From positions 38,246,867 through 38,310,866 of the forward strand of contig NC_088868.1 of NCBI RefSeq assembly GCF_032884065.1: a stretch of 64,000 nucleotides of DNA, written 5' to 3'. Source of the DNA: Artemia franciscana. Taxonomy: Eukaryota; Arthropoda; Branchiopoda; Anostraca; Artemiidae. Positions 615 through 61,564 of the stretch are shown one piece after another. The notes beneath the pieces were generated by a model that worked only from the letters and a program-made list of their open reading frames with translations, had not been told where the DNA came from and did not search any database. How positions within the stretch are numbered: the stretch's first letter is position 1; every line of letters begins with the position of its first letter. A program made the position numbers and the translations under genes.

Positions 615-2636
615 GTATATTTTTATAGCTTTAATAATTTTAAAATTACCGTAGATTTAAAATATTCATCGATTTCTGAGAATGAAAAAATTTCAAGTTT
701 TTAAAGCCATTTTGTAAACAGACAAGTAACCAGATAAATATATGAATTTTTTTTGGTGATTTATTGAGCATGATATAGCCTATTCTGATGAAGAAAGTAA
801 AAAGGAAAATGGGAGAGACGAATAAACATTATAAAATCAGATTAAATGTACAAAATATGAAGTAGAAGGTAAAAAGTAACACTTCTCCAAAGCTTGGGAT
901 ATACGACACATACCTGTATTTACCCTAATATGTCTGATTAGGCTATTTTACTTCAGATCCATGTTGTATTAGGCTAGATTGATTTTAAATTTAGATATAT
1001 TTAGCTTTATATAATATATATCCGTTTTAGTAAAATAACTCACAAAGATGTACTAAATAAGAATTATTTAGAACGACAATCTATGCAACTATCAATGCAA
1101 AATGTGCCTTGATGTTTGCACATGCAATTACTTGAAAAGTCCAATAACAGTTATTATTTTTTGACGTTAGTGACTCATTCCACATAAAGCTTGGCTGTGA
1201 GAGATTGGACGTTTAAACTGATATCGCAATAAGAGAATAACTTCTGTGTTATTTGTTTTAAAATGTAAGTAGAGGAAAGTAGGCGGGATTGTTAAAGGCA
1301 GCAATCTTCGCACAATTATAATACCAATATAATGGTAAAGATACAATTGCATCTCTATTTTAAAATATACTCTTAATATGATGATAATATTGGCATATTC
1401 GCCCAACCAGAATTGTAGCAGCTTCACTTGTATTGTGGCCTGCTAGTGGCGGAAGAAAAATATTGGAACATCATATCAAGAAATGAGTGAAAACCCTGTA
1501 ACTAGTTATACTTGACAACGTTATACTTGACAACGTTATACTTGACAACGTTTCGGTACGTCAACCAAGGTTTGGCACTTTAACCATTCAAGGATTAGTG
1601 ATGATTCCACAGATATCTCGCTTCAATATATTTGCAGACTTCAAAAGCCATCTGATTGAATGTTTTGGCTTCCTAAAGGTTGACAGCATCCAGTGCCATT
1701 GAGCGGGTGAAGCGTTATCCAACCCAATGATGTTACCGGAACGGGCTGGTCCTTAATTTTTCCCTATTTTCTAAAAATTCACTACCCTCTCTTAATGGTC
1801 ACATTCTCTTAAAGACAGCTGGAATGCCAGTAAATCGAGGAAGGACAGTATTGGATTGAAATTTTGACTTACTAAGGGTTTAACTCCCACATGTGAAGAT
1901 GGTTAACCTTCTCTTATTCTCTTTTAGGCCTCTTTTTCCTCCAACTTTCCAGTTTAGTCCCCCTTAAACGCTCTTTTTCTCTTTTAGGAATAGTTGCTTA
2001 TGTTTCAGCTGCTTAGAGATAACGATCTGAAATGGAGAAAAATACTTGACAAGCTGCAATATTTTGTGGTTGTTGGATAAACACCTCATGTTTTACGTTT
2101 AGAATACATTTAGTTATGGTTCACTCTATATATTTTTTCAAGTTCCGTCCATGGCACAAGATAAAATAATTTCCCATATTTAGTTTCAAATGGATTGTCG
2201 AAAAGAAAGGACTATAATTTTGTTCAATCGCAAAAAATATTTGTATGTGCTAAAGGACCATTTTATGGATGTAGCAGTGGCCTTTAGATTTTGAGAAACC
2301 GTTGTTTTGGTATCATTTAAAAATTGCCCCACGACCCCTCTATGAACAATACCTTTTTTGTTATAAAAAAAATTAAGATTCTTGCTCTGAGAATCAAGAT
2401 CCTGACTAAATTTTCGTGAATCGGTGCCCTTCTGCTCGGATTGTGTTGAATTCATTTCGAATCCAGTATCTTTTTATGATACTCTTTAAACTTATAAAAA
2501 GAAAGAAAACCTTTTTCCCATTGTCTACATGATCCGTATCAAATTTAATAGAAAAACAACTGTTTCCTTCTTTTGAAAATCTAAATTTTTTACACATAAG
2601 GTACACGTTTGTCGACGAAGTACATTCTTTGATAAA
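615..2636. other. No gene seen; AT-rich non-coding
   Basis: AT-rich sequence without a convincing exon, possibly intron downstream of the MIF4G exon. The only structure noted is the short tandem triplet at 1506-1550. Confidence 0.4.
1506..1550. repeat. 15-bp tandem repeat, three identical units
   Basis: The unit TTATACTTGACAACG is repeated three times without a mismatch at 1506-1520, 1521-1535 and 1536-1550. Confidence 0.9.
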
Positions 2637-3180
2637 TCAAATAAAAAAAAAACAAGTTGTTTTAGCTGAAAGTAAGGAGTGACGTTAAAACTTAAAGCGA
2701 ACAGAAATTACTTCGAATATGAATGAGTCTGCTCCCTCCTCTCCGCCCCGCTCTTTACGCTAAAGTTTGACTCTTTCTCTCAACTCTACTTTTAAAAACA
2801 GAAAAGTTTTTAGCGTAAAGAGGGGGCGTTGCGGAGGGAGCAGCCCCTTTCATATTCGAAGTAATTTCTGTTCGTTTTAAGTTTTAATGTCGCTCCTTAC
2901 TTTCAGTTAGAAAACTTGTTTTTTTTTAAATTTAATTTCTGAATGTTTTTGAATTAATGCATGTTTTTATTTTGGCTCTCCGCATATGAATAATTAAAAC
3001 GAAATTCGCATATTTAATTATTTGGCTAAGTGGCTTTCTCATAGTTTTGATTGAATGAGTTTGAAAAAAAGGACGGGGGAGGAGGCCTAGTTTTTCTCCA
3101 ATTTTTTGGTTACTTAAAAAGGCTACTAAAGCTTTTAATTTCTTACTAACGTTTTTACTAATAAACGATATACGTTACTT
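2637..3180 (-). repeat. F1 interspersed repeat, tail part (copy a, split by RTE-1)
   Basis: This is the palindromic tail of repeat family F1. Arms at about 2637-2790 and 2805-2930 read CTGAAAGTAAGGAG... inward and pair over more than 100 bp, with a GC-rich stem section (around 2735-2760 against 2818-2850). The conserved F1 body follows (an AGGAGGCCTAG segment and a TTACTTAAAAAGG segment), but it stops abruptly at GTTACTT, 3174-3180. The missing F1 continuation resumes at 9957, so this copy is interrupted by the RTE-1 insertion. Confidence 0.85.
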
Positions 3181-3698
3181 CTATATCTTTCTTTGGAAAA
3201 TTTAATTAAAATATCAAGGGGGTCTTGTTGCAGTAGAACGAGTGAGGTTAGGAACGAGGAAGCAGAATAGGGAAAAGTTAATTAGTCTGGAGGCCATTAA
3301 GAGCACTATGGCGAAAGATAAATAATCTTCGCTCTCCTTTCCTTAAGCGTGACAATATTGGCTCTTTGAAAAAGGGAGACGAAAGGAGTTTTGCCCTCGG
3401 ATGGCAAACAGGGAAGGGCAACAGGGGAACAATTATCATTAACTGATTTAGTATCCAAACTTTCATCTATTTCTTTCTTTGGAAAATTTAATTGGAGTAT
3501 AAAGGGGGCCTTGTTGCAAAAGAACGAGTGAGATTTGGAAAGAGCAAGCAGAACGGGGAAAAGTTAATTAGTTAGGAGGCTATTAAGAGCATTATGGCGA
3601 AAGGTAAAATAATCTCCGCTCTCCTTTCTTCAAACGTGACTAGATTGGCTCTTCGAAGAAGGGATACGAAAGGGGTTTTGCCCTCGGATGGCAAACAG
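3181..3698. repeat. Direct duplication, two ~231-bp units
   Basis: Units at 3181-3411 and 3467-3698 (offset 286 bp) both begin CTAT(A/T)TCTTTCTTTGGAAAA and end in CCCTCGGATGGCAAACAG. They differ by scattered substitutions. They sit at the extreme 5' end of RTE-1, against the interrupted F1 sequence. Confidence 0.8.
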
Positions 3699-3752
3699 CC
3701 TAGGCGTACAAATTAGAGGAAAACGTTCAAATAGTATTATTTAGGAGCTTTA

Positions 3753-5990
3753 GGTTTTCTATAGGGTGTTAGCTTGTGAGATGTTTCAAACAGGCTAAAT
3801 TGGCTACTTAGGTCTACTTTTGCAGTATTAGCAGAGTTTCTAATAAGTTTTCTTCTTCATTTAAATTCTCAAAGGTGTTTTCTATAGGGTGTTGGCTTGT
3901 GAGATGTTTCAAACAGGCTAAATTGGCTACTTAGGTCTACTTTTGCAGTATTAGCAGAGTTTCTAATAAGTTTTCTTCTTCATTTAAATTCTCAAAGGTG
4001 TTTTCTATAGGGTGTTTGCTTGTGAGATGTTTCTAACAGGCTAAATTGGCTACTTAGGTCTACTTTTGCAGTAATAGCAGAGTTTCTAATAAGTTTTCTT
4101 CTTAATTTAAATTCTCAAAGGTGTTTTCTATAGGATGTTGGCTTGTGAGATGTTTCAAACAGGCTAAATTGGCTACTTAGGTCTACTTTTGCAGTATTAG
4201 CAGAGTTTTTAATAAGTTTTCTTATTCATTTAAATTCTCAAAGGTGTTTTCTGTAGGGTGTTGGCTTGTGAGATGTTTCAAACAGGCTAAATTGGCTACT
4301 TAGGTCTACTTTTGCAGTGTTAGCAGAGTTTCTAATAAGTTTTCTTCTTAATTTAAATTCTCAAAGGTGTTTTCTATAGGGTGTCGGCTTGTGAGATGTT
4401 TCAAACAGGCTAAATTGGCTACTTAGGTCTGCTTTTGCAGTATTAGCAGAGTTTCTAACAAGTTTTCTTCTTCATTTAAATTCTCAAAGGTGTTTTCTAT
4501 AGGATGTTGGCTTGTGAGATGTTTCAAACAGGCCAAATTGGCTACTTAGGTCTACTTTTGCAGTATTAGCAGAGTTTCTAATAAGTTTTCTTCTTCATTT
4601 AAATTCTCAAAGGTGTTTTCTATAGGGTGTCGGCTTGTCAGATGTTTCAAACAGGCTAAATTGGCTACTTAGGTCTACTTTTGCAGTATTAGCAGAGTTT
4701 CTAACAAGTTTTCTTATTCATTTAAATTCTCAAAGGTGTTTTCTATAGGATGTTGGCTTGTGAGATGTTTCAAACAGGCTAAATTGGCTACTTAGGTCTA
4801 CTTTTGCAGTATTAGCAGAGTCTCTAATAAGTTTTCTTCTTCATTTAAATTCTCAAAGGTGTTTTTTATAGGGTTTTGGCTTGTGAGATGTTTTAAACAG
4901 GCTAAATTGGCTACTTTTGTCTACTTTTGCAGTATTAGCAGAGTTTCTAATAAGTTTCCTTCTTCATTTAAATTCTCAAAGGTGTTTTTTTTATAGGGTG
5001 TTGGCTTGTGAGATGTTTCAAACAGGCTAAATTGGCTACTTAGGTCTACTTTTGCAGTATTAGCAGAGTTTCTAATAAGTTTTCTTCTTCATTTAAATTC
5101 TCAAAGGTGTTTTCTATAGGGTGTTGGCTTGTGAGATGTTTCAAACAGGCTAAATTGGCTACTTAGGTCTACTTTTGCAGTATTAGCAGAGTTTCTAATA
5201 AGTTTTCTTCTTAATTTAAATTCTCAAAGGTGTTTTCTATAGGGTGTCGGCTTGTGAGATGTTTCAAACAGGCTAAATTGGCTACTTAGGTCTACTTTTG
5301 CAGTATTAGCAGAGTTTCTAACAAGTTTTCTTATTCATTTGAATTCTCAAAGGTGTTTTCTATAGGATGTTGGCTTGTGAAATGTTTCAAACAGGCTAAA
5401 TTGGCTACTTAGGTCTAAATTGGCAGTATTAGCAGAGTCTCTAATAAGTTTTCTTCTTCATTTAAATTCTCAAAGATGTTTTCTATAGGGTGTTGGCTTG
5501 TGAGATGTTTCAAACAGGCTAAATTGGCTACTTTTGCAGTATTAGCAGAATTTCTAATAAGTTTTCTTCTTCATTGAAATTCTCAAAGGTGTTCTCTATA
5601 GGGTGTTGGCTTCTGAGATGTTTCAAACAGGCTAAATTGGCTACTTAGGTCTACTTTTGCAGTATTAGCAGAGTTTCTGATAAGTTTTCTTATTCATTTA
5701 AATTCTCAAAGGTGTTTTCTATAGGGTTTTGGCTTGTGAGATGTTTCACAAAGGCTAAATTGGCTACTTAGGTCTACTTTTGCAGTACCAGCAGTATTTC
5801 TAATAAGTTTTCTTATTTATTTAAATTATCAAAAGTGTTTTCTATAGGGTGTTGGCTTGTGAGATGTTTCAAACAGGCTAAATTGGCTACTTAGGTCTAC
5901 TTTTGCAGTACTAGCAGGGTTTCTAATAAGTTTCCTTCTCAATTTAAATTCTCAAAGGTGTTTTCTATAAGGTGTGGCTTATGAGGTGTT
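3753..5990. repeat. Minisatellite array, 123-bp unit, about 18 copies
   Basis: Unit starts are visible at 3753, 3874, 3997, 4120, 4243, 4366, 4489, 4612, 4735, 4858, 4981, 5106, 5229, 5352, 5475, 5588, 5711 and 5834, with a decayed partial unit from 5957. Each begins GGTGTTTTCTATAGGGTGTT and ends in TTAAATTCTCAAA. Most steps are exactly 123 bp and units differ at few positions, apart from a short deletion in the 5475 unit and a small insertion near 4985. Units have no open frame. The array lies within the inferred 5' region of RTE-1. Confidence 0.95.
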
Positions 5991-6020
5991 GCATTGCAAT
6001 CAGGCCAAATGGGCTATTTA

Positions 6021-6335
6021 TCAGTTAATTATTAGTTAACATGCTAGGTTTTGGTAGAGGACAATAGAGCTTTTTTGTGTTTTCTTTATTTTAGGGTATA
6101 AATTAAAAGGAAAGTTGTACCTTATTACAATTATTAATTAGTTGCAATAGTTAGTTAATTATTAGTTTGCATGGTAGGTTTTAGCAGAGGACAAAAGAGC
6201 TTGTATATGTTATTTTTGTCCTTTACTTTATAGTCTAAATTAAAGTAAAGCTGCAATTTACTGCAACTATTTATTAGTTGCATTACTTAGTTAATTATTA
6301 GATAATCATGCTAGGTTTTGGTGGAGGACAACAGA
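6021..6335. repeat. Degenerate tandem repeat, ~130-bp unit, about 2.5 copies
   Basis: Units start near 6021, 6151 and 6287, each with TTAATTATTAG followed by ATG(C/G)TAGGTTTT and GAGGACAA. They are more diverged than the adjacent 123-bp array and lie between it and the RTE-1 leader. Confidence 0.75.
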
Positions 6336-6339
6336 TAGA

Positions 6340-7172
6340 GGAATGTCCTACAGATAGGTAGAGTAGCTCCATAGGAGGCTTAGACCAAGTAGGACCTTGT
6401 CCCAGTTGTGCCCATAATAGAAACTGGGAAACTCTTCCCTGGGGGTCATAATTACAGGTGGAGGAGGAAGAAGGCCCCTCAAATGTACACTCAGCAGGGC
6501 CAACTTTCTCCCAGTAATGGGTTAAATTGCATGGTGAAGCAGAACACCATCGTGGGAGGATCCTCTATGGGAGGACAACTGCGACAGGGCGTAAGATCCA
6601 GATTTATGGACAACAGCCTCTGTAAAGGGCTGTCTCGACCCTTTCGGGGTACCTGCAAGACTGGGAAACTTGCGGTCAATTTTTCCCACCTGAGGAGTGG
6701 TGCCCCTCGAGGAAATTATAGCCTAGTAAACAACACAGCACACGTACGGGATTCTGATTATTGGATAATTTTCTGGGCTTGGTTTGTTTTGATGGGCGTT
6801 TTCGGGCTGAAAAACCTCTTCCTAGTTAATTTATCTACTATGGGCTGCCTCCCCGTAGTAGCATAACAGTTGTAGGCGTGAATATATAATGAGTCGGAGG
6901 TAATAGGCTTGGGATTGTCTGTGCAGGATTTCGACTCTTGTTGATAGAAGAGCATCGCCAAGTGCTGAAAACCATGTTGTGACCAAGATGGGCCCAGGAT
7001 TGCACAAAGCCTCCAACTTACTGGAGGTCCCAGGGACTTCTTGCTGTCCGGTTCTAAGCCGGCTGAAGCGCTTCGGTGTAGACTTTATAAGATATGTTGG
7101 TCCCCATCCTGCACTGGTATCCGGGATCACTGCTTTTCTTGAGGCCAAAATAATTTCAAAGATTTAAAGAAC
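6340..7172 (+). other. RTE-1 leader (5' untranslated region)
   Basis: This GC-richer stretch is shared almost base for base with RTE-2 from about 6585 (RTE-2 44913) onward. RTE-2 lacks everything upstream. A 152-codon open frame occurs at 6408-6866 but matches no protein I recognise. RTE-2 carries a deletion relative to it near 45018, and open frames also occur on the opposite strand, so I treat the region as non-coding leader. Confidence 0.6.
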
Positions 7173-9942
7173 AAGAAAATTGGAACTTGGAATGTTACGA
7201 CGTTAAAAAATGACTATCGCATCGACATTTTGACTGACGAATTCAGACGGTTTGAACTGGATTTATTAGGACTTTCAGAAACTTATATCCCAGGGGTAGG
7301 AAGCATGAAATTAGGTGACATAGAATTTGTTTACTCAAGCAGGAAGGATGGGGTACATAGACAGGGAGTAGGGCTCATGATGAATAAGGAAGCTGCTAAG
7401 TCTTGTTTAGGCTGGGAAGGTATTAATAATAGAATACTAATTGCTCATTTTATGACTAAAAAGTTTAGGGTATCAGTTATAGTAGTATATGCCCCCATTG
7501 AACCAACTGATGGAGATACTAGTGACTCAGATGAATTTTACTTACAGTTACAGGAGCAAATAGATAGGGTACCAGGTAGAAATATGGTGTTTGTGCTAGG
7601 AGATTTTAATGCCCAGGTTGGTAGAAATAGGGATGGATGGTATCCTAGCCTAGGTAAATTTGGTGTAGGAAAAGAAAACAGGAATGGCTATAGGCTTTTG
7701 CAATTTTGTAGGTATAACAACCTAGTTATAACCAATACGGTGTTTGGTCACAAAATGGCCCATAAGTTGACATGGTATTCACATGACGGTAAGACAGCAA
7801 ACCTTATTGATTATGTTATTGTAAACAGAAGACTAGCAGGATCAATACAAGATACTAGATACCGTTATTGATGTTAAAAGGAAAGATCACCATCTAGTAG
7901 TGTCCAAGGTTAATTTAAAGCTGAAATTTCGGAAGGGTAACTCCCTCCCGGAAAGTTATGATGTTGGTAGACTTCAGGATGAAAAATTGATGTTTCCAGG
8001 AACAGTTGAGTACTAAACTTGAGGGTTTAAAATTTGACAATGTGGAAGATGGATGGAATAATTTCAGTAAAACAATTTGTGAAGTTGCTGATGGTGTCCT
8101 AGGGAAGAGTGCTAAGACTGTAACTAGGAATATTAGTGAAAAAGATTTAGGTTTAATAGAGAGTAGAAGGGGTTTGTATAAGAATTATCTGAGTGATAGG
8201 TCGTATGAAAACAAAAGGAATGTAAAGAAAGTGGAGAAAGCATTAAAAAATGAACTAAGGAGATGTGAAGTGGAGGCGATGGATAAAATTACTGAGGATC
8301 TGGAAGATGCGGCTAGACGGCATAATAGTAAAATATTATACTGGCATGTTAATAAATTGAAAGGGAGTAGGCAATCCGGACTAGTCCCAGTTAAAGATAG
8401 AAATGGGGCCACAATTAGTGATAAGGAAAAAGTTAAAGAAAGATGGGTGGAACATTTTGAGAATGTGCTAAACCGAGATACAGTTGCAGGAAAAGATATA
8501 GATGAAAATGATAAAGTTTGTGACAGTACTAAAAGGATTAAAAAATAATAAGGCCCCAGGTGCTGATAGTATGATTAATGAGTTTCTTAAATATGGTGGC
8601 TCTGAGGTTAGGAATAAGCTACTGAAGATTATGAACATGATTTTTGAAAAAAATCATGAGACATGCTGAGACAAGCAATCTGAGATATGACAAAAATCAA
8701 TCTGAGACATGCTGTAGACAAAGTTTTAAGGGAAGAACAATGCGGTTTGAGAAAAGGTAGAGGATATGTCGACGATGTATTCACTCTTAGGTTAATAATT
8801 GAGAAGTCCCTTCGTTGTCAAACACCTTTGGTCCTTAGTTTTATCGATTATGAGCAAGCTTTCGATTCTGTTGATAGAACAGCGTTAACAAAGGTCTTAT
8901 CGTTATATGGTATACCAGAAAAATACATTAAAGTGATTTGCGCTATGTACGAGAATAATACTGCTGCGGTTAAGGTAGGAAATGAGGTTAGCAACTGGTT
9001 TTGTATTAAATCAGGAGTTAAGCAGGGTTGTGTTCTATCCCCCTTTATATGTATCATTTTGATGGACTTCGTCTTAAGGAGCACAGGAAAGGCAATTGGA
9101 GACCATGGAATCAAAAGGGAGGAATAATGCTCCTGGACTTAGATTATGCTGATGATTTAAGCATATTAGATGAAAGTGTGAGGAAAATGAATGAATTTTT
9201 AGAGGTTTTACGAGTTCAGGGTGCTAAGATAGGCTTGAAAATTAATGTTAAGAAGACTAAGTCACTAAGGCTAGGAATAAGTGAAGATGAACAGGTGACA
9301 TTAGGTAACGAAAAGATTGATCAGGTTGGGAGCTTCAGTTACCTTGGTAGTATTATTAGTAAAGATGGTGGGAGCAGTGAAGATGTTAAAAGTAGAATAG
9401 CTAAAGCTCAGGGTGTTTTTTCACAGTTAAAAAAAGTTTGAAAGAATAGAAAGATAAGTCTACAAACCAAAATTAGAACATTGGAAGCTACAGTGATGAC
9501 AGTGGTCAAATATGGCTCTAAAGCATGGGCACTCCGAAAAGCAGATGAAAATTTACTAGATGTTTTCCAGAGAAATTGCCTACGGATTGTTCTGGGTACC
9601 CGGCTGACTGACCGTATTTCAAACAGTAGGTTGTACGAAAAGTGTGATTCAATCCCGCTTTCTGGGGTTATAATGAAAGAAAGGTTGAGATGGATAGGCC
9701 ACGTTCTACGGATGAAGGATGACAGATTACCAAAGATTGTCCTTTTTGGCCAACCGTCTGGGGCTACACGGAAAGCAGGTCGTCCTTGTCTGGGTTGGGA
9801 GGATGTCATAAATAAAGATTTAAAGGAAATGGGAACTTCCTGTTAGGGTGTAAAGAGGGAGGCTTTAAATAGATTAGGTTGGAGGAGGATCGTGCGTAGC
9901 TGTGTTGGCCTCAGGCGGCTTGGTGCTGCAGTGAGTTATTAG
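7173..9942 (+). pseudogene. RTE-1 endonuclease/reverse transcriptase ORF, inactivated
   Basis: The single RTE polyprotein frame is recognisable against RTE-2 but broken. The RTE-2 start codon position reads AAG here (7173-7175). An 11-bp loss near 7858 disrupts the frame after the endonuclease domain, which still shows GDFNAQVG and LIDYVIVNRR. About 50 bp are missing near 8527. Around 8650 roughly 140 bp, including the first reverse-transcriptase motifs, are replaced by about 48 bp of filler. The RT motifs [25 protein letters not shown] and DYADDLSIL survive at about 8837-9170. The C-terminal segment ([18 protein letters not shown], 9700-9755) is present but frame-shifted. The frame ends at a TAG that begins the (TAG)n tail. 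Identity to RTE-2 in shared parts is very high, so the damage looks recent. Confidence 0.85.
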
Positions 9943-9957
9943 TAGTAGTAGTAGTAG
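9940..9957 (+). repeat. (TAG)6 tail of RTE-1
   Basis: Six TAG trinucleotides follow the last sense codon directly. The first TAG is the stop codon. The tail abuts the GTTACTT duplication and the resumed F1 sequence. Short microsatellite tails are usual for RTE elements. Confidence 0.85.
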
Positions 9958-10943
9958 TTACTTGCAAATTAGCTTACGTAGCGAAATTCTGCATTCGCAT
10001 GTCTTATTACGTATATAAGGGGGTCCAACCCCTCGTCAGTACCTTGCTCTTTACACTGAAGCTTAAATTTTAATTAAATTAAATCAAAGACCGTAGAATA
10101 AATAGTTGAAATTACTAAAAATACTTTAGCGTAAAGAACAAGGTATTGGGGAGAGGAAGAGGTGAACCCCTCATATGTGTAATAATTTATGCTTGTTTTA
10201 TGTTTTAATGCTGCTCCTTACTTCCAGTTAAAAAAAACTTTTTTATATTTTTTTTTCATTTTTCTTTAATAATGCTATAAAAACCTGCGCTCCCTTCATG
10301 AAAATTTTCTTCCGTCATGACAAATTCCTCGATGAAAAGTTCTCCCTTCATATTCCCCTCTTCTCAACCCCTACCCCTAACCAAAATATACCATGGAGAC
10401 GTCTGTATAGTTCCAAAAAACCATTACTATATAAGCGCTGGTCAAAGTTTATAAATTGTAGCCCCTCCCACGGGGACTCTGGGAGAGTAAGTCGTCCACG
10501 AAGACGTAGTTATAAGGATTTTGAACTCTGCTGAATAAAATTGTTTTCTCGGAATTTTGATCCGGGGACATTGAGAAAATAATTACCGTTGGAGGGGGCC
10601 TAGGTACCCTCCAATTTTTTCGGTCACTTAAAAAGGGCACTAAAACTTTTTATTTCCGTTAGAATGAGCCCTCTCGCAATATTCTAGGACCACTTGGTCG
10701 ATACAATCACCCCTAGGAAAAAAATAAAATAAACACGCATCTGTGATCTGCCTTCTGGCAAAAACTGCAAAATTTTCAGGCTCGTAACTTTTGATTGTAA
10801 GACAAAAACTTTTACGTCCGAAATCAGCATTAAAATGCGATTCTTTTGATGTAGCTATTGGTATCACAATTCTGTTTTTAGAGTTTTTGTTGCTATTAAG
10901 CTGGGTCGCTCCTTACTACAGTTCGTTACCAAGAACTATTTAA
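9957..10943 (-). repeat. F1 interspersed repeat, head part (copy a)
   Basis: This continues the F1 copy broken at 3180. It carries the inner hairpin module (CTCTTTACACTGAAG around 10050 against CTTTAGCGTAAAGA around 10125), the conserved body, and the head hairpin near 10919-10938 (a mutated form of CAGTTCGT-TACC-ACGAACTG). Confidence 0.85.
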
Positions 10944-11033
10944 TTAGCTCATTCATTATGTATACATGATATATCTCATATATGAAATATGAGGTACATG
11001 TGGCCGTGAGGACTGATTTTTTCTCCTTTTTAG

Positions 11034-15825: not shown

Positions 15826-17632
15826 TCAAACAGTTCGTGGTAACGAACTGTAGTAAGGGGCGACCCGGCTCAATAGTAACCAAAACTCTAAAAAATGTTT
15901 GATATCAAATATCAAATTGTGTCAAATATCAAATATCAAATATCAAAAAAAAAATGTTTGATATCATAAAAAATTTTGATATCAATAGCTACATCAAAAG
16001 AATTGCATTTTAATGCCGATTTTAAATATATATGTTTCATCAAGTTTAGTCTTACCCATCAAAAGTTACGAGCCTGAGAAAATTTGCCTTATTTAAGAAA
16101 ATAGGGGAAAACACCCCCTAAAAGTCATAGAATCCTAACGGAAATGACACCATCAGATTCAGCGTATCAGAGAACCCTACTGTAGAAGTTTCAAGCTCCT
16201 ATCTACAAAAATGTAGAATTTTGTATTTTTTGCCAGAAGACAGATCACTGGTGCGTGTTTATTTGTTTGTTTTTTTTTTTTTTCCAGGGGTCATCGTATC
16301 GACCAAGTGGTCCTAGAATGTCGTAAGAGGGCTCATTCTAACGGAAATGAAAAGTTCTAGTGCCCTTTTTAAGTGACTGAAAAAATTGGAGGGCATCTAT
16401 GCCCCTCCCATGCTCATTTTTTTCCCAAAGTCAACGAATCAAAATTTTGAGATAGCCATTTTGTTCAGCATAGTCGAAAACCATAATAACTATGTCTTTA
16501 AGGATGACTTACTCCCCCACAATCCCTGGGGGAGGGGCTGCAAGTTACAAACTTTGACCAGTGTTTACATATAGTAATGGTTATTGAGAAGTGTACAGAC
16601 GTTTTCAGGGGGATTTTATTTTTTGGGGGGTGAGGCTGAGGGGAGGGGGCTATGTTGCAGGATCTTTCCTTGGAGGAATCTGTCATGGGGGAAGAAAAAT
16701 TCAATGAAAAGGGCGCAGGATTTTCTAGCATTACTATAAGAAAACAATGAAAAATAAACATGAAAACGTTTTTTCAAATGAAAGGAAGGAGTAGCATTGA
16801 AACTTAAAACGAACAGAGATTATTACGCATATGAGGGGTTCTAAAAATACTTTAGCATAAAGAGCGAGGTATTTAGGAGGAGATAAATACCTCGCTCTTT
16901 ATGCTGAAGTATTTTTAGTAATTTCAACTATTTATTCTACGGCCTTTCTGATTCAGGGGTCATTCTTAAAGAATTGGGACGAAACTTACGATTTAGTGTA
17001 AAGAGCGAGGCATTAACGAGGGTACAAACCCCCTCGTATACATAATAAAAATATAAGATTATGAAAGTTTGTTACGTAAGTTAATTCTTAAGTTACGTAT
17101 ATTTTTTACTAATAAAAACGTTCGTTAAAAATTAAAAGTTCTAGTTGCCTTTTTAAGTAACCGAAAAATTGGAGGGCAACTAGGCCTCCTTCTCCACCCC
17201 TTATTTCTCAAAATTGTCTGATCGAAACTAAGAGAAAGCCATTTAGCCAAAAAAAGAATTAATATACAAATTTCATTTTAATAATTTATGTGCGGAGAGC
17301 AAAAACCAAACTTGCATTAATTCAAAAACGTTCAGAAATTAAATAAAAAAAATAATCTTTTTAGCTGAAAGTAAGGAGCGACATTAAAACTTAAAACGAA
17401 CAGAAATTACTCCGTATATGAAATGGGTTGTCCCCTCTGCAATCCCTCACTCTTTACGCTAAAGTTTGACTCTTTGCCACAATTCTACTTTTTAAAACAA
17501 TTAAAAGTTTTAGCGTAAAGAGCGAGGGATTGCGGAGGGGACAACCCATTCCATATACGGTTTAATTTCTGTTCGTTTTAAGTTTTAATGTCGCTCCTTA
17601 TTTTCAGCTAAAAAGATTAGTTTTTTTTTATT
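15826..17632 (+). repeat. F1 interspersed repeat, full-length (copy b)
   Basis: It begins TCAAACAGTTCGTGGTAACG, whose inner 20 bases form an 8-bp stem with a GGTA loop. It runs through the conserved body and an inner hairpin module (about 16795-17045), and ends in the outer palindrome at 17341-17632, arms of about 120 bp around a ~35-bp loop. The head contains GTAAGG(A/G)GCGAC and the tail ends with its reverse complement, so the element has short terminal inverted repeats besides its hairpins. It encodes no protein. Confidence 0.85.
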
Positions 17633-20494: not shown

Positions 20495-22166
20495 AATTAA
20501 ATAAAAAAAAACAAGTTTTTTTAAATGAAAGTAAGGAGTAACATCAAAACTTAAAACGAACAGCAATTACTCCGCATATGAAAGGGGCTTTTCCTTCTCA
20601 ACGCCTCGCTCTTTACGTTAAAGTTTGACTCTTTTTCTTTTCTACTTACTACTTTTTAAAACAGTAAGAAACTTTAGCGTAAAGGGTGGGGCGTTGAGGA
20701 GGAAAAGCTCCTTTCATATGTGGAGTAATTTCTGTTCGTTTTAAGTTTTAATGTTGCTCCTTACTTTCATTTAAAAAAACCTGTTTTTTTATTTAGTTTC
20801 TTGACGTTTTTGAATTAATGCATGTTTTGATCTTGGCTCTCCGCGCATTAATACTTAAAGCAAAATTGCATATTAATTAATTGCAATTAATCGGAAGATT
20901 TTGACAAAAAAGGAGTGAGAGAGGAGGCCTAGTTCCCCTCCAATTTCTTATTACTTAAAAAGGTAACTAGAACTATTAAGTTTTTACAAACGTTTTCATT
21001 GGTAGAAATTATACGTAACTTACGAATTAACTTACGTAACGAAATTCTATATTCGTATGTTTTTATTGCGTATATGAGGGGGTTCAACCCTCGTCAATAC
21101 CTCGCTCTTTACACTAAAGCTTAAATGTCCCAATTCCTTAAGAATGACCTCTGAATCACAAAGGCCGTAGAATAAATAGCTGAAATTACCAAAAATACTC
21201 TAGCGTAAAGAATGAGGTATTACGAGGAGGTAAACCCCTCATATGCGTAATAATTTTTGTTCGTATTAAGTTTTAATGCTGCTCCTTACTTTCAGTAAAA
21301 AAAACTTTTCATATTTATTTTTTCATTGTTTTTTCAAATAATGCTAGAAAATCCTGCACCCCCTTCATTGAAATTCTCTTCCCCCATGAGAAGTTTATCC
21401 ATGGAAATATCCTCCAACGTAGCCCCCCCCCTCAACTCGCCACCCTTAACCAAAAAAAAACCTTGAAAACGTCTGTACACTTCCTAGTAACCATTACTAT
21501 ATGTAAACACAGGTCAAAGTTTGTAACTTGCAGCCCCTCCCACGGGGACTGCGGGGGAGTAAGTCATCCGTAAAGACATTGTTATTAGGTTGATTGTCTA
21601 TGGTGAATAAAATGGCTATCTCAGAATTTTGATCCGGTGACTTTTGGGGAAAAATGAGCGTGGGAGGGGGCCTAGGTGCCCTCCATTTTTTTCGGTCACT
21701 TAAAAATGGCACTAGAACTTTTAATTTTTGTTAGAATTAGCCCTCTTGCGACATTCTAGGACCACTCAGTCGATACGATCACCCCTGGGGAAAACAACAA
21801 CAAAAAAACAAATAAACACGCATCCGTGATATGTCTTCTGGCAAAAATGCGAAACTCCACATTTTTGTAGATAGGCGCTTGAAACTTCTAGAAAATGGTT
21901 CTCTGATACGCTGAATCTGATGGTGTGATTTTCGTTAAGATCATATGACTTTTAGGGGTTGTTTTCCCGTATTTTCTAAAATGAGGCAAATTTTCTCAGG
22001 CTCGTAACTTTTGATGCGTATAACTGATCTTGATGAAACTTATATATTTAAAATCAGCACTAAAATGCGATTCTTTTGATGTAACTACTGGTATCGATTT
22101 TATAGAGTTTCGGTTACTATTGAGCCGGGTCGCTCCTTACTACAGTTTGTTACCACGAACTGTTTG
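20495..22166 (-). repeat. F1 interspersed repeat, full-length (copy c)
   Basis: The outer palindrome lies at about 20495-20794, with stem section GGGGCTTTTCCTTCTCAACG at 20584 and its matching complement near 20690. The body follows, with an inner hairpin at 21100-21240 and the head hairpin at 22142-22161 followed by TTTGA. Its palindrome stem belongs to a different sequence subgroup from copies b, d and f. Confidence 0.85.
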
Positions 22167-22198: not shown

Positions 22199-22370
22199 TT
22201 TATTCGTAACCTCAATATAAACATAAATAAAAATGACACTACTTATAAATTACTACAGCAAAAAGAAATTCCTAAGGATCTGTGCTGCAAATTTCTGTTA
22301 TGGTTTATATCTTATAAATAAATATTTAAACATAACAACTCATGATTATCCACCTAGCATATTCTATATA

Positions 22371-23848
22371 TTAAATAAAAAAAAAACTAATTTTTTTAGC
22401 TGAAAGTAAGGAGCGACATTAAAACTTAAAACGAACAGAAATTACTCCGTATATGAAATGAGTTGTCCCCTCCGCAATTCCTCGCTCTTTACGCTAAAGC
22501 TTTTAATTGTTTTAAAAAGCAGAATTGTGGCAAAGTGTCGAACTTTAGCGTAAAGAGCGAGGAATTGCAGAGGGGACAACCCATTTCATATACGGAGTAA
22601 TTTCTGTTCGTTTTAAGTTTTAATGTCGCTCCTTACTTTCAGCTAAAAAAATTAGTTTTTTTTTATTTAATTTCTGAACGTTTTTGAATTAATGCAAGTT
22701 TGGTTTTGGCTCTCCGCACATAAATTATTAAAATGAAATATGTATATTAATTCTTTTTTTTGGCTAAATGGCTTTCTCTTAGTTTTGATCAGACGATTTT
22801 GAGAAATAAGGGGTGGAGAAGGAGGCCTAGTTGCCCTCCAATTTTTCGGTTACTTAAAAAGGCAACTAGAACTTTTAATTTTTAACGAACGTTTTATAAG
22901 TAAAAAATATACGTAACTTAAGAATTAACTTACATAACAAACTTTCATAACCTTATATTTTTATTATGTATACGAAGAGGTTTGTACCCTCGTTAATACC
23001 TCGCTCTTTACACTAAATCGTAAGTTTTGTCCCAATTCTTTAAGAATGACCCCTGAATCAGAAAGGCCGTAAAATAAATAGTTGAAATTACTAAATACTT
23101 TAGCATAAAGAGCAAGGTATTTATCTCCTCCTAAATACCTCGCTCTTTATGCTAAAGTATTTTTAAAACCTCTCATATGCGTTATAATCTCTGTTCGTTT
23201 TAAGTTTCAATGCTACTTCTTCCTTTCATTTGAAAAACCATTTTCATGTTTATTTTTCATTGTTTTCTTATAGTAATGCAAGAGAATCCTGCGCCCTTTT
23301 CATTGAATTTTTCTTCCCCCGTGACAGATTCCTCCAAGGAAAGATCCTCCACCATAGCCCCCTCTCGTTAGCCCCACCCCCAAACAAAATAAAATCCCCC
23401 TGAAAACGTCTGTGCACTTCCCAATAACCATTATTAAATGTAAACACTGTTCAAAGTTTGTAACTTGCAGCCCCTCCCCCAGTGATTGTGGGGGAGTAAG
23501 TCATCCCCAAAGACATAGTTATTATGGTTTTTGACTATGCTGAACAAAATGGCTATCTCAAAATTTTGATCCGTTGACTTTGGGAAAAAAATGAGCGTGG
23601 GAGGGGGCCTAGATGCCCTCCAATTTTTTTGGTCACTTGCAAAGGGCACTAGAACTTTCCATTTCTGTTAGAATGAGCCCTCTTGCGACATTCTAGGATT
23701 ACTTGGTCGATACGATGACCCCTGGGGAAAAAAAAACAAAACAAAAAAACAAACAAATAAACACGCACCCGTGATTTGTCTTCTGGCAAAAAATACAAAA
23801 TTCCACGTTTTTGTAGATAGGAGCTTGAAACTTCTACAGTAGGGTTCC
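22371..23848 (-). repeat. F1 interspersed repeat, head-truncated (copy d)
   Basis: The outer palindrome is at 22371-22670 and an inner hairpin at about 23085-23170 (CCTCGCTCTTTATGCTAAAG arm). The conserved body stops at about 23848, shortly after CTACAGTAGGGTTC, without the head hairpin. Confidence 0.85.
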
Positions 23849-26689: not shown

Positions 26690-27685
26690 GGCACTTGGTA
26701 TTAATCAAGTGACATATAGCGATTGCAAATTCTGTCGGTCTGTCTGTTCCGCTTTTGTTCGTTTAGGCACTTCCAGATAATCTAGGACGATGAAATATGG
26801 CAGGCGTATCAGGGACCAGACGCAATTAAATTATAAATAGTCTTTTTCCCCGATTCGACCATCTGGGGGGGGGGGTGTCGGTTATTTTGGAAAAATTAGA
26901 AAAATGAGGTGTTTTTAACTTACGAACAGGGGATCAGATTTTAATGAAATTTGACAGTTAAATGGATATCAAGTGTCAGAGCTGTCATTTTAAATCCCAA
27001 AAAGATCCGATGACATTGGGAAGAGTTGGAGGGGGGAACCTAAAATCTTGGAAAACGCTTAGAGTGGAGGGACCAGGATGAAACTTGGTAGAAAAAATAA
27101 ACACGAGTCCTAGATACGAGATTGACATAAATGGAACGGATCCCCTCTTTTTGGGAGAGTTGAGGGGAGGGTTAATTATGAAAAATTAGAAAAACGAGGT
27201 ATTTTTAACTTGCTAAGAAGTGATGGATCTTAATGAAATTTCCTATTTAGAAGGACTCGTAGCTCAGACGTCTTATTTTAAATTCCGACCGGATCCAGTG
27301 TCATTGGGGGGAGTGGGGGGCTGGAAATCTTAGAAAACACTTAGAGTGGAGAAATCAGGATGGAACTTGATGGGAAGAATAATCACAAGTCCAAGAACGT
27401 GACTGACATAACCGGACCAAATCAACTCTCTTTGGGGGAGTTGGGGGGGGGTAATTTGGAAAAATTAGAAAAATGAGGAATTTGTAACTTACGAACGGGT
27501 GATCACATCTTAATGGAATTGGATATTTAGAAGGATCTTGTGCTTCAGAGCTCTTATTTTAAATTCCGACCAGATCTGGTGACATTAGGGGGAGTTGTAG
27601 GGGGAAACTGGAAATCTTGGAAAACATGAAAATTGAGGATCTTTATCTTACAAATGGGTGATCGGATCTTAATGAAACTTGATAT
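26690..27685. repeat. F3 repeat array, ~300-bp units (left part)
   Basis: It starts with the dyad CACTTGGTATTAATCAAGTG (26692-26711), followed by GTCGGTCTGTCTGTTC and CGATTCGACCATCTGG. It then repeats a unit containing TTAATGAAATTTGA, CAGAGCTCTTATTTTAAAT, GACATTGGGGGGAGTTGG, AATCTTGGAAAACGCTTAGA and GATGAAACTTG at about 300-bp spacing. The array is cut at about 27686 by a minus-strand LINE and resumes at about 29837. Confidence 0.7.
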
Positions 27686-29836: not shown

Positions 29837-30990
29837 TCTTAGATGCTCCATTCTCAATTCGAATCGAATCTGGGGACAAAGGGGGCTGGAAGGGGAAAAC
29901 TGAAATCTTGGAAGCTAGAAATCTTGGAAAACGCTTAGAGTGAAGAGATCGGGATAAAACTTGATGGGAACAACAAGCACAGGTTTGAGATACGTGATTG
30001 ACATAATAGGAACAGATCCGCTTTCTTTTGGGGAGTTGGGAAGATTTCCAGTGCTTTGGCGAGTTCGGTGTTTTTGGACGTGCTAGGATGATGAGAATTG
30101 GTAGGCGTGCCAGGTACCTTCACAAATTGGCTTGATAACAGTCGTTCTCCCGATTCGACCATCTGGGGGCCTAGAGGGAGAGAAAAAATTTAAAGAAATG
30201 AGGTATTTTTGACTTACGAACGGGTGATCGTATCTTAATGATATTTGATATTTAGAAGAACCTTGTGTCTCAGAGCTCTTATTCTAAATCCCGACTGTAT
30301 CCGGTGATATAGGAAGAGTTTGAGGAAGAAACGGAAAATCTTAGAAAGCACTTTGAGAGAAGAAATTGAGATGAAACTTGTAGGGAAGAATAAGTGCAAG
30401 TCCTAGATAAGTGATTGACATAATTGGACTGAACCCACTCTTTCTGGGGGAGTAGGGGGGGCATTGATTCAAAATAATTAGAAAAGTTGGGGTATTTTTA
30501 ACTTCAGAATGGGTAACTATGTCTTAATGAAATTTTATATTTAGAAGGAATCCATTTCTCAGAGCTCTTATTTTAAATCCCGACCAGATCTGGTAACATT
30601 GGGGGGAGTTGGAGGGGGAAACTAGAAATCTTGGAAACGCTTAGAGCGGAGAGATCTGGATGAAATTTGGTGGGTAGAATAAGCAAATGTTGTAGATACA
30701 TGATTGATGTAACTGGACTGGATCAGCTCTCTTTGGGGAAGTTAGGGGGTCCAGTGCTTTGGCGAGTTCGGTGCTTCTGGACGTGCTAGGAGGACGAAAA
30801 TTGGTAGGCTCGTCAGGGACCTGCAAAGAGTTATTTGATAAGGCCCTTTTCCCCGATTCAACCATCAAGGGGGCTGAAGGGAGAAGAAAAATTATAAAAA
30901 ATGAGGCATTTTTACTCCCGAGTAAATTTTGATATTTAGAAGGACCTCCTGTCTCAGAGCTCTTATTTTAAATCCCAACCAGCAGTAAGC
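29837..30990. repeat. F3 repeat array (right part)
   Basis: This continues the units of 26690-27685. Phrases such as CAGAGCTCTTATTTTAAATC (near 30560 and 30954), CTAGGAGGACGAAAATTGG (30786) and CGATTCGACCATCTGG (30151) recur. Confidence 0.7.
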
Positions 30991-44537: not shown

Positions 44538-45496
44538 TCTCGTCTTTTTTTGCAATAATAAATTGCAATCTCAGACCCACTCCTCTTCATACTTAAAGAC
44601 CATAGATCTAAAGTTCGTCTTCGACTAAATCTTTGTAACAAAAGTAGAATTATCAAAATTTTACTAATTATTAAACAGAATTAAGATTTCCCTTATCAAT
44701 TATTCTTATCGAATAGAATTTATAATTTTTCTTTATTGTTTCATTATTTGAATTTGGTTTATAATTTGGGATTTCATTATTTATTTGGTAAATACTTTTT
44801 TCTCATTTACATAAGATAACAATTGAATTTACTTCACGGGTAGGAATCAGATTTGTAAATAATAAACTTTGGTAAAACATAAGAATTGCTTTGGTGAAGT
44901 TTAAGCTAGATTCTGCGGCAGGGCGTAAGATCCAGAATTATGGACAACGGCCTCTGTAAAGGGCTGCCTCGACCCTTTCGGGGTACCTGCAAGACTGGGA
45001 AACTTGCGGTCAATTTTTGAGTGGCGCCCCTCGAGGAAATTAAAGCCTAGTAAACAACACAGCACTCGTACGGGATTCTGATTATTGGATAATTTTCTGG
45101 GCTTGGTTTGTTTTGATGGGCGTTTTCGGGCTGAAAAACCTCTTCCTAGCTAATTTATCTACTATGGGCTGCCTCCCCGTAGTAGCATAATATTTGTAGG
45201 CATGAATATATAATGAGTCGGAGGTAATAGGCTTGGGACTGTCTGTGCAGGATTTCGACTCTTGTTGATAGAAGAGCATCGCCAAGTGCTGAAAACCATT
45301 TTGTGACCAAGATGGGCCCAGGATTGCACAAAGCCTCCAACTTACTGGAGGTCCCAGGGACTTCTTGCTGTCCGGTTCTAAGCCGGCTTAAGCGCTTCGG
45401 TGTAGACTTGAGAAGATATGTTGGTCCCCATCCTGCACTGGTATCCAGGATCACTGCTTTTCTTGAGGCCAAAATAATTTCAAAGATTTAAAGAAC

Positions 45497-46687
45497 ATGA
45501 AAATTGGAACTTGGAATGTTACGACGTTAAAAAATGACTATCGCATCGACATTTTGACTGACGAATTCAGACGGTTTGAACTGGATTTATTAGGAGTTTC
45601 AGAAACTCATATCCCAGGGGTAGGAAGCATGAAATTTGGTGACATAGAATTTGTTTACTCAGGAAGGATGGATGGGATACATAGACAGGGAGTAGGGCTC
45701 ATGATGAATAAGGAAGCTGCTAAGTCTTGTTTAGGCTGGGAAGGTATTAATAATAGAATACTAATTGCTCATTTTATGACTAAAAAGTTTAGGGTATCAG
45801 TTATAGTAGTATATGCCCCCATTGAACCAACTGATGGAGATACTAGTGACTCAGATGAATTTTACTTACAGTTACAGGAGCAAATAGACAGGGTACCAGG
45901 TAGAAATATGGTGTTTTTGCTAGGAGATTTTAATGCCCAGGTTGGTAGAAATAGGGATAGATGGTATCCTAGCCTAGGTAATTTTGGTGTAGGAAAAGAA
46001 AACAGTAATGGCTATAGGCTTTTGCAATTTTGTAGGTATAACAACCTAGTTATAACCAATACGGTGTTTGGTCACAAAATGGCCCATAAGTTGACATGGT
46101 ATTCACGTGATGGTAAGACAGCAAACCTTATTGATTATGTTATTGTAAATAGAAGACTAGCAGGATCAATACAAGATACTAGGGTGTATAGGAGTGCCGT
46201 TATTGATGTTAAAAGTAAAGATCACCATCTAGTAGTGTCTAAGGTTAATTTAAAGCTGAAATTTCGGAAGAGTAACTCCCTCCCGGAAAGTTATGATGTT
46301 GGTAGACTTCAGGATGAAAATTTGAGAAAAAAATTCCAGGAACAGTTGAATACTAAACTTGAGGGTTTAAAATTTGACAATGTGGAAGATGGATGGAATA
46401 ATTTCAGAAAAACAATTTGTGAAGTTGCTGATGGTGTCCTAGGGAAGAGTGCTAAGACAGCAACTAGGAATATTAGTGAAAAAGCTTTAGGTTTAATAGA
46501 GAGTAGAAGGGGTTTGTATAAGAATTATCTGAGCGATAGGTCGTATGAAAACAAAAGGAATGTAAAGAAAGTGGAGAAAGCATTAAAATATGAACTAAGG
46601 AGATGTGAAATGGAGGCGATGGATAAAATTGCTGAGGATCTGGAAGATGCGGCTAGACGGCATAATAGTAAAATATTATTAAAATAA
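45497..46687 (+). CDS. RTE-2 ORF, first part: AP-type endonuclease and linker
   Basis: 396 residues beginning MKIGTWNVTTL. The exonuclease/endonuclease/phosphatase fold motifs are complete: TWNVTTL (Asn), SETH (catalytic Glu), VVYAPIE, LLGDFNAQVG (Asp, Asn), LTWYSRDGKTANLIDYVIVN and SKDHHLVVSK (the Asp-His pair). This domain nicks target DNA to prime reverse transcription. Similar domains are often annotated as craniofacial development protein 2-like because RTE endonuclease was captured in that gene. Residues 240-396 form a basic, helical linker toward the reverse transcriptase. The frame ends early in the 40-bp insertion. RTE-1 shows the same protein continuing with YWHVNKLKG. Confidence 0.85.
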   Translation: MKIGTWNVTTLKNDYRIDILTDEFRRFELDLLGVSETHIPGVGSMKFGDIEFVYSGRMDGIHRQGVGLMMNKEAAKSCLGWEGINNRILIAHFMTKKFRVSVIVVYAPIEPTDGDTSDSDEFYLQLQEQIDRVPGRNMVFLLGDFNAQVGRNRDRWYPSLGNFGVGKENSNGYRLLQFCRYNNLVITNTVFGHKMAHKLTWYSRDGKTANLIDYVIVNRRLAGSIQDTRVYRSAVIDVKSKDHHLVVSKVNLKLKFRKSNSLPESYDVGRLQDENLRKKFQEQLNTKLEGLKFDNVEDGWNNFRKTICEVADGVLGKSAKTATRNISEKALGLIESRRGLYKNYLSDRSYENKRNVKKVEKALKYELRRCEMEAMDKIAEDLEDAARRHNSKILLK

Positions 46688-46719
46688 TAATATTAATAAT
46701 ATTAAATTAAAATAATATT
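46680..46719. other. 40-bp AT-only insertion in the RTE-2 ORF
   Basis: Relative to RTE-1 (8331-8349) 40 bases consisting only of A and T are inserted between TATTAT and ACTGGCATG. They contain in-frame stops and shift the frame by one. The insert is made of AATAATATT-like phrases resembling its flanks, suggesting slippage or templated repair. Confidence 0.85.
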
Positions 46720-48461
46720 ACTGGCATGTTAATAAATTGAAAGGGAGTAGCCGATCCGGACTAGTCCCAGTTAAAGATAGAAATGGGGCCACAATTAGTG
46801 ATAAGGGAAAAGTTAAAGAAAGATGGGTGGAACATTTTGAGAATGTGCTAAACCGAGATACAGTTGCAGGAAAAGATGTAGATGAAAATGAAAAAGTTTG
46901 TGATACCTTGGATGTGAAGGAAGATTTGTTTAGTGAGGAAGAATTAGCGACAGTACTAGAAGGATTAAAAAATAATAAGGCCCCAGGTGCTGATAGTATG
47001 ATTAATGAGTTCCTTAAATATGGTGGCTCTGAGGTTAGGAATAAGCTACTGAAGATTATGAACATGATTTTTGAAAAAGGGGAAGTACCCAATGATTTTA
47101 GGAAAACCTTAATTAAACCACTGTATAAGAAAGGTGACAAGAGTGAATGTCGGAATTATCGAGGCATTAGTCTGGTCTCTGTAGGTAGCAAATTACTGAG
47201 TAATATGATACTTTTTAGACTGAGACATGCTGTAGACAAAGTTTTAAGGGAAGAACAATGCGGTTTTAGAAAAGGTAGAGGATGTGTCGACCATGTTTTC
47301 ACTCTTAGGTTAATAATTGAGAAGTCCCTTCGTTGTCAAACACCTTTGGTCCTTAGTTTTATCGATTATGAGCAAGCTTTCGATTCTGTTGATAGAACAG
47401 CATTAACAAAGGTCTTATCGTTATATGGTATACCAGAAAAATACATTAAAGTGATTTGCGCTATGTACGAGAATAATACTGCTGCGGTTAAGGTAGGAAA
47501 TGAGGTTAGCAGCTGGTTTTGTATTAAATCAGGAGTTAAGCAGGGTTGTGTTCTATCCCCCTTTATATGGATCATTTTGATGGACTTCGTCTTAAGGAGC
47601 ACAGGAAAGGCAATTGGAGACCATGGAATCAAATGGGGAGGAAGAACGCTCCTGGACTTAGATTATGCTGATGATTTAAGCATATTAGATGAAAGTGTGA
47701 GCAAAATGAATGAATTTTTAGAGGTTTTACGAGTTCAGGGTGCTAAAATAGGCTTGAAAATTAATGTTAAGAAGACTAAGTCACTAAGGTTAGGAATAAG
47801 TGAAGATGAACAGGTGACCTTAGGTAACGAAAAGATTGATCAGGTTGGGAGCTTCAGTTACCTTGGTAGTATTATTAGTAAAGATGGTGGGAGCAGTGAA
47901 GATGTTAAAAGTAGAATAGCTAAAGCTCAGGGTGTTTTTTCACAGTTAAAAAAAGTTTGGAAGAATAGAAAGATAAGCCTACAAACCAAGATTAGAATAT
48001 TGGAAGCTACAGTGATGACATTGGTCAAATATGGCTCTGAAGCATGGACACTCCGAAAAGCAGATGAAAATTTACTAGATGTTTTCCAGAGAAATTGCCT
48101 ACGGATTGTTCTGGGTACCCGGCTGACTGACCGTATTTCAAACAGTAGGTTGTACGAAAAGTGTGGTTCAATCCCGCTTTCTGGGGCTATAATGAAAGAA
48201 AGGTTGAGATGGCTAGGCCACGTTCTACGGATGAAGGATGACAGATTACCGAAGATTGTCCTTTTTGGCCAACCGTCTGGGGCTACACGGAAAGCAGGTC
48301 GTCCTTGTCTGGGTTGGGAGGATGTCATAAATAAGGATTTAAAGGAAATGGGAACTTCCTGGGAGGGTGTAAAGAGGGAGGCTTTAAATAGATTAGGTTG
48401 GAGGAGGAGCGTGCGTAGCTGTGTTGGCCTCAGGCGGCAAAGTGCTGCAGTGAGTTATTAG
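46716..48461 (+). CDS. RTE-2 ORF, second part: reverse transcriptase and C-terminal domain
   Basis: The frame opens after a TAA at 46713-46715 within the insertion and continues to the natural stop. RT landmarks appear in order: [30 protein letters not shown] (motifs 1-2); [32 protein letters not shown] (motif 3, catalytic Asp); [14 protein letters not shown] (motif 4); [10 protein letters not shown] (motif 5, catalytic Asp pair); and [12 protein letters not shown]. The C-terminal part carries [20 protein letters not shown] and [11 protein letters not shown], a conserved tail of RTE-like proteins. All catalytic residues seen are intact. No ATG starts this segment, so translation would need the upstream ORF. 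Apart from the insertion the element looks recently active. Confidence 0.85.
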
Positions 48462-48583
48462 TACAAGTAGTAGTAGATAAATAACCATAATTAGTTTGGA
48501 AAGTTTTTCCACCACGATTAATTTTACTAATATTTTTTTTTTTTTCGGTGTCATTAAGGGTATTCATGTAATTTTTGGGAAGC

Positions 48584-50587
<2,004 letters not shown>

Positions 50588-54374: not shown

Positions 54375-54529
54375 CGATAAAGGTGGCGAGAGAAAAGTAA
54401 GCAGAAGGGGGTGAGTGAGTTGGTAGCAAAAGCCCTGGTACCCACCGGGCGTGCCCCTTAAATTGCGGGGACAAGGTAGCCAACCCTCTATACTTCCCTT
54501 ACTTTTCTCGTAAGGAAACCACCGGTAAA

Positions 54530-61367: not shown

Positions 61368-61564
<197 letters not shown>

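Follow-up and report, generated by a model that had tools for sequence, protein, structure and literature searches.

An RTE-type retrotransposon of Artemia franciscana with a heritable, length-variable array of 123-bp monomers in its 5' region

A 64,000-nucleotide stretch of the Artemia franciscana genome (the window; C6:38246867-38310866 of assembly G000, whose contigs are designated C1, C2 and so on) contains a non-long terminal repeat (non-LTR) retrotransposon with features of the RTE clade, which lies within a copy of the F1 repeat. Self-comparison of the window revealed that this F1 copy (copy a) runs from 2634 to 3180 and resumes at 9957. A 7-bp target-site duplication, GTTACTT, is found at the two breakpoints; the probability of a 7-base match by chance at a given breakpoint is 6e-5. 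When the flanks were joined, they aligned through the insertion site in each of the six further F1 copies within the window that span it (6/6), and the site was present once in each of these copies (GTAACTT in four, ATAACTT in one and ATAACCT in one). A seventh F1 copy (50591-51725) does not contain the insertion-site region and was not used. Because of the duplication, and because the flanks rejoin across the other F1 copies, positions 3181-9956 are a single insertion, as an earlier interpretation made from the letters of the window (the sequence-only reading) had proposed. Its estimate of ~18 monomers of 123 bp agrees with the count in Table 1. It had also described three ~130-bp units; the repeat is present, and was measured as 2.4 copies of ~136 bp. 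Tandem Repeats Finder reported 93% matches for the 123-bp array and 78% for the 136-bp units.

Table 1. Features of the RTE insertion and of the second family copy, in window coordinates
Feature	Position	Strand	Remarks
Left 7-bp target-site duplication, GTTACTT, in F1 repeat	3174..3180	.	
Probable 5'-transduced flank	3181..3753	+	286-bp unit 3181-3466, second partial copy 3467-3698, 55 bp more; antisense fragment of another LINE
Tandem array, 18.3 monomers of 123 bp, 5' end of element proper	3754..5990	+	
Linker, P133 type, 2.4 units of ~136 bp at 6023-6335	5991..6346	+	boundary with last partial monomer approximate
RTE leader, start common to both subfamilies	6347..7142	+	open frame of 157 aa at 6393-6866
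ORF2: AP-type endonuclease, then reverse transcriptase	7143..9942	+	stop TAG 9940-9942; frame broken and partly deleted in window copy
(TAG)n tail	9940..9956	+	first TAG is the ORF2 stop codon
Right copy of target-site duplication, GTTACTT	9957..9963	.	
RTE-2, second family copy in window, 5'-truncated inside leader	44913..48479	+	starts at equivalent of 6579

The window copy contains an endonuclease frame (7143-7871) and a reverse transcriptase frame (7991-8548), and its region 8702-9960 matches RTE-2 at 97% in an interrupted alignment, bearing out that an RTE body lies inside the insertion. In RTE-2, an apurinic/apyrimidinic (AP)-type endonuclease domain was recognized at 45467-46687 (PF03372, E 4.7e-8), together with a reverse transcriptase domain (PF00078, E 3e-33). 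The latter is of the non-LTR type and matched 10 Protein Data Bank sequences, including LINE-1 ORF2p and R2. In the window copy the stop codon of the second open reading frame (ORF2) is the first TAG of the tail, so the element has almost no 3' untranslated region (UTR). The tail of RTE-2 consists of the stop TAG, then TACAAG, then TAG repeats, with no poly(A), and TAG tails were also seen in L039-L042 (longer reads of L011, L010, L012 and L036). The element fits RTE anatomy, and the clade name is based on this anatomy together with C-terminal motifs. The start of RTE-2 corresponds to a position inside the leader, so this copy is 5'-truncated, as the sequence-only reading had assumed in order to explain its lack of monomers. 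Target duplications were clear in three of the six copies checked: the window copy (7 bp), the copy on C12 (12 bp) and L042 (14 bp), where 23 unexplained bases separate the duplication from the first monomer. That of L041 was weak (7 bp, not abutting the 5' end), and none was visible for L039 and L040, the latter ending in an AT run.

Copies of the array end, linker and leader were then sought in the assembly (query 5937-6800), and the best 40 of 2680 first-look candidates, ranked by similarity, were scored. Being the top copies by score, they form a sample biased toward complete copies. The 123-bp array was present in all 40 (37 over the full query; three from position 6, 24 or 26). We read 29 loci besides the window, and in each of them (29/29) at least 2.09 monomers precede the linker. 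A query with the monomer only, which does not carry the bias toward complete copies, gave 396 first-look candidates; 40 of these were scored, and among the 40 distinct array places listed, 22 belonged to the first 40 copies and 18 were new. The 3' side of each new array was read over 600-820 bases, and 18/18 run into the linker or body of this RTE: 11 enter the linker named P133, five enter a different linker named Q, and two continue directly into internal RTE sequence, by deletion. L081 and L084 enter P133 with deletions. The read of L084 stops inside the linker, and so does that of L079, whose leader junction appears in the genome-wide P133 count given below. The sequence-only reading had suggested that the monomers are carried by the RTE lineage and that a genome search should reveal further joins of monomers to the leader. 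Both points held: monomers were by no means confined to the window copy, and each linker meets the leader at a fixed place. An array at the same place without the RTE, in alleles or relatives, which that reading had named as contrary to its view, was not seen either.

The linker Q measures ~260-325 bp, contains many TATG and AT repeats, and joins the leader at the same start as P133. When Q served as the query, all of the best 40 of 2878 first-look candidates that were scored span monomer, Q and leader. Genome-wide pattern counts gave 419 places for the leader start (at most two mismatches), 216 for the Q junction and 207 for the P133 junction (at most three mismatches each), with 0 places for every reversed control. 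With 5 of 33 places differing between the junction patterns, double counting of a copy is unlikely. Comparing 207 plus 216 junctions with 419 leader starts, nearly every leader start seems to carry one of the two linkers, with the reservation that leader starts and junctions were counted under different mismatch limits and that their sum is no exact partition. The family comprises two subfamilies which share their monomers and have unrelated array-to-leader linkers. The P133 units had no detectable relation to the 123-bp monomer, and a common origin of monomer, linker unit and the 286-bp unit further upstream was not detected against shuffles. Linker and leader together differ by a mean of 3.6% among 29 copies. 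In 20 of the 28 leaders read (L014-L042 without L036), a frame of 147-158 aa is open, possibly an ORF1; the corresponding frame of the window copy had no Pfam match.

Array length varies considerably. The number of monomers per copy ranged from 2.1 to 18.3 with a median of 5.1 (28 copies). The longest selected arrays have ~51 (C1:2862426-2868745) and ~48 monomers (C1:57230958-57236819), and others have 24, 21.5 and 21; long arrays were read at both ends and not over the whole interior, so these counts assume no interruption. Two places on C3 (31715900-31720100 and 31730900-31734620), ~15 kb apart, are an inverted duplicate of what is seemingly one RTE insertion. Their flanks are identical in 272 of 279 columns, and the arrays measure 2377 and 2733 bp, respectively. 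Unless the assembly errs here, array length thus changes after insertion, which makes this pair useful for measuring array turnover. The two monomers adjoining the linker are position-specific across copies (distances of 0.046 and 0.057 within a position versus 0.085 and 0.082 to others), and monomers further 5' are much less so. This comparison covered 181 monomers, with both L015 and L026 included, and omitted 6 of the 123 columns, so that distances are slightly low throughout. Since position specificity is largely limited to the two 3'-most monomers, turnover seems to occur at the 5' side of the array with the 3' pair being kept. The arrays are cut at scattered places by 5' truncation.

In the window copy, further sequence lies between the array and the left target duplication. 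The sequence-only reading had seen a doubled 231-bp segment here as part of the insertion. A segment of 231 bp is indeed repeated inside the insertion with a period of 286 bp (3181-3411 and 3467-3698, 87% alike), and the segment probably lies outside the element proper, as its occurrence elsewhere suggests. Among the 40 candidates scored out of 80 first-look candidates, only three places in the genome match it strongly: the window, the flank of an RTE copy on C12 and a spot on C19, where no RTE was found within the 1500 bases read on each side. The other 37 matches are 67-89% identical. Of these, 26 were read (L047-L072) and share a dispersed repeat whose opposite strand encodes pieces of a reverse transcriptase in several copies (RVT_1, E 3.1e-5, 24.2 bits, below the Pfam cut-off of 29.6).

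The RTE at C12 begins directly after TATTATTTAGGAGCTTTAG, at monomer phase 1, and ends in a TAG tail followed by TATTCATTTAGGAGCTTAAG, and ATTTAGGAGCTT on both sides is its 12-bp target duplication. Both C12 flanks have matches (64-82% identity) in ten of the 26 members read of the other LINE family, and these are collinear in 10/10 cases (e.g. L061, L070 and L047). Since the other LINE family runs from the left flank to the right flank, the doubled segment is target DNA at C12. The array junction is identical base for base in the window and C12. C12 matches window 3294-3753 in 444 of 463 columns, window 3425-3753 being 96% identical to the C12 left flank. The first full monomer of both copies also has a variant that occurs in just 3 of the 181 monomers. 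In the window the extra 5' sequence lies inside the GTTACTT duplication; at C12 the same sequence is host flank and lies outside the target duplication. The simplest account of these sequence comparisons is that the window copy very probably arose by 5' transduction from C12 or its allele, because what is host DNA at C12 is the doubled segment of the window. A transcript starting upstream, in the antisense fragment of the other LINE, would have read through array and element at C12, and would then have been reverse transcribed into F1. On our reading the element proper is 3754-9956, and 3181-3753 lies outside it. Some observations do not favor this origin. Upstream of unit position 114 the C12 sequence is a different one, without the outermost 113 bases of the window copy, so that C12 today is not the exact parent. 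It has 8.5 monomers versus 18.3 in the window, the two bodies share only three rare variants, no more than other pairs, and a search that took the segment as part of the C12 insert found only a 9-base word, CTTAAGGAG, in both outer flanks, abutting neither end.

A stretch on C19 (L044, C19:6277825-6281351) carries three adjacent tandem arrays, with ~112-bp units, ~88-bp units (by eye) and 2.4 copies of the 286-bp unit; no RTE was present in the stretch read. The 88-bp array was considered as a further part of the RTE and dropped, as no other place was found in the genome.

Two other origins of the 5' region have to be weighed against these data. RTE copies might have inserted into, or become joined with, a pre-existing 123-bp satellite, and arrays of up to ~51 units are long and satellite-like. 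However, in the loci read, the 25 bases upstream of the arrays are not array and vary between copies (except in L015 and L026, which represent one insertion); array, linker and leader share one orientation, and their junctions have fixed phases; joining the window flanks restores an empty site; and no RTE-free array was found among the 40 array places listed with the monomer-only query. A satellite origin is therefore extremely improbable, and the 123-bp array is almost certainly part of the RTE element. The sequence-only reading, on the other hand, had taken the whole of 3181-9956, including the doubled segment, as a full-length element from which most copies would have lost the segment by 5' truncation. 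In line with this, the segment is located inside the window target duplication and also upstream of the C12 array at equal phase. What speaks against it is the continuation of the other LINE family 3' of the C12 RTE, together with the target duplication there, as well as the small number of strong matches to the segment. Moreover, six long-array insertions (~51, ~48, 24, 21.5 and 21 monomers, and the C3 pair with 19-22) lack the segment in the 118-461 bases upstream. We consider this extended element unlikely.

As a whole, the findings are best explained by an RTE-like non-LTR retrotransposon in which a heritable, length-variable 123-bp array, a linker and a leader form the 5' region in front of ORF2, and whose monomers may act as repeated promoter or enhancer units; we give this interpretation a probability of roughly 0.7. 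Taken on its own, the proposal of a promoter or regulatory role for the monomers, which is drawn by analogy, has about an even chance. Such units would survive 5' truncation, and a copy keeping a few of them would stay transcribable, as in mouse L1. Several results weigh against this proposal. Complete reverse transcription from one start site per monomer should let 5' ends pile up at that site, as for the mouse type A monomer, and insertion 5' ends were not clustered within the monomer, neither among 26 ends (Rayleigh p 0.73) nor among 33 (Rayleigh p 0.67; best 2-nt window with four ends, scan p 0.19). Both sets exclude L026 (same flank as L015), L009 (the window itself) and L030 (5' end outside the locus). 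L014 is absent from the smaller set, its 5' end having first been placed inside the doubled segment, and stands at phase 1 in the larger one, from which L098 was excluded (array reaching the edge of the stretch) and in which the two C3 places count once. With few ends and much truncation, this scatter lends the promoter no support, nor does it exclude it. No significantly conserved core was found in 177 monomers (all columns, without L026; least variable 20 bp, permutation p 0.33), one monomer gave no stable RNA fold on either strand (z -1.1 and -1.3), and monomer number was unrelated to divergence among copies (rho -0.03, 27 copies). Accepting the transduction would also mean that at least one productive transcript had its start outside the array, 573 bp or more upstream of it.

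The main rival to a promoter function is that the array is a passenger minisatellite, which arose once in the 5' UTR of the lineage and changes by slippage or unequal exchange without any promoter role, transcription starting from upstream, linker or leader sequence. The unclustered 5' ends, the absence of a conserved core beyond chance, the differing arrays of the C3 pair between nearly identical flanks and the one transcript that apparently began outside the array are all in agreement with such a passenger. A pure passenger would, however, easily lose what is in fact kept in both subfamilies, namely the array itself, its fixed junction phase and the position-specific 3' monomers. We regard the passenger explanation as plausible, at somewhat under even odds.

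Some more specific roles of the monomer were considered and dropped. An initiator-like TCATTT is present, with CATT in 125 of 177 monomers, yet 5' ends are not clustered there. A coding repeat would be compatible with 123 being a multiple of 3, but stops occur in all six monomer frames. For a ribozyme or another structured RNA, a search of window 2600-11000 against Rfam (E up to 5) gave 11 matches, none above the gathering score; a hairpin-ribozyme match at 3406-3448 reached 25.3 versus the required 65 bits.

The window contains a number of other features. A self-complementary stretch of ~300 bp, perhaps a miniature inverted-repeat transposable element (MITE)-like element, is present in six F1 repeats (2634-2938, 17342-17632, 20495-20798, 22370-22671, 38257-38556 and 62338-62640); the first of these had a weak Rfam score as a plant miRNA precursor, below the gathering score. 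A 281-bp tandem repeat and related units nearby are located at 26886-27626 and 29910-30982. Open frames at 54419-56345 resemble, by eye, the ORF1 and endonuclease of another LINE. On the minus strand, 59389-60291 is an open frame of 300 aa, which may resemble galactosylceramide sulfotransferases. Two long (AT)n runs are found at 48586-48765 (~90 units) and 61368-61560 (~96 units).

RTE elements usually have short 5' UTRs. Tandem repeats of ~185 bp at the 5' end are found in SLACS of trypanosomes, also a non-LTR element, which differs from the Artemia RTE in its clade, its fixed target and its repeat. In 5' transduction by L1 and SVA, a new copy bears, at its 5' end, the upstream flank of its source copy. 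Compared with these, in the Artemia case the likely source region can be named (C12), and an antisense fragment of a LINE makes up the transduced piece. If confirmed, the window copy would be a traceable 5' transduction, and as such evidence that at least one productive transcript had originated outside the array. The body of the Artemia element resembles RTE, BovB, Rex3 and locust Rter in having an AP-type endonuclease and a reverse transcriptase, almost no 3' UTR and a short simple-repeat tail; comparable anatomy is described for Rex3 (PMC6274825) and locust Rter (PMC3391268). No description of tandem 5' monomers on an RTE element was found in the accessible text of the open-access literature searched (including PMC10827361, PMC3747384 and PMC2861651).

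The closest parallel is mouse L1 (L1Md A, Gf and Tf), for which two studies describe head-to-tail 5' monomers of variable number, a non-monomeric tether and truncation inside the array (PMC6454616, PMC9022269). The Artemia RTE shows the same features, with inherited variable 5' monomers and the linkers P133 and Q as non-monomeric tether. Mouse L1 belongs to another clade and has monomers of ~200 bp, versus 123 bp in Artemia. Artemia arrays are also longer: 7 of 27 copies have more than 10 monomers, and the longest has ~51. For mouse, one of these studies names seven loci with more than 10 monomers beside percentages out of 5765 (PMC9022269). The mouse type A monomer has a common truncation site (PMC6454616), and none was seen among the 33 ends in Artemia, a small sample. 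The same study calls the mechanism of monomer duplication in mouse unclear (PMC6454616). Promoter activity has been measured for mouse L1 monomers; the Artemia monomers are known here from their sequence. Tentatively, and with slightly less than an even chance, an expandable promoter built from up to ~51 monomers may have evolved in the Artemia RTE lineage independently of rodent L1, and been kept while the linker was exchanged: two lineages of ~200 leader-containing copies each would share monomers and not linkers, with array turnover fast enough to be visible between duplicated loci. The best-known promoters built from monomers are those of mouse L1, and a second, unrelated case with longer arrays would allow a comparison. 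Such a comparison, drawing on two linkers, duplicated loci and ~420 places with a leader, could address which monomers become fixed, how arrays grow and whether tandem 5' units protect a retrotransposon against 5' truncation.

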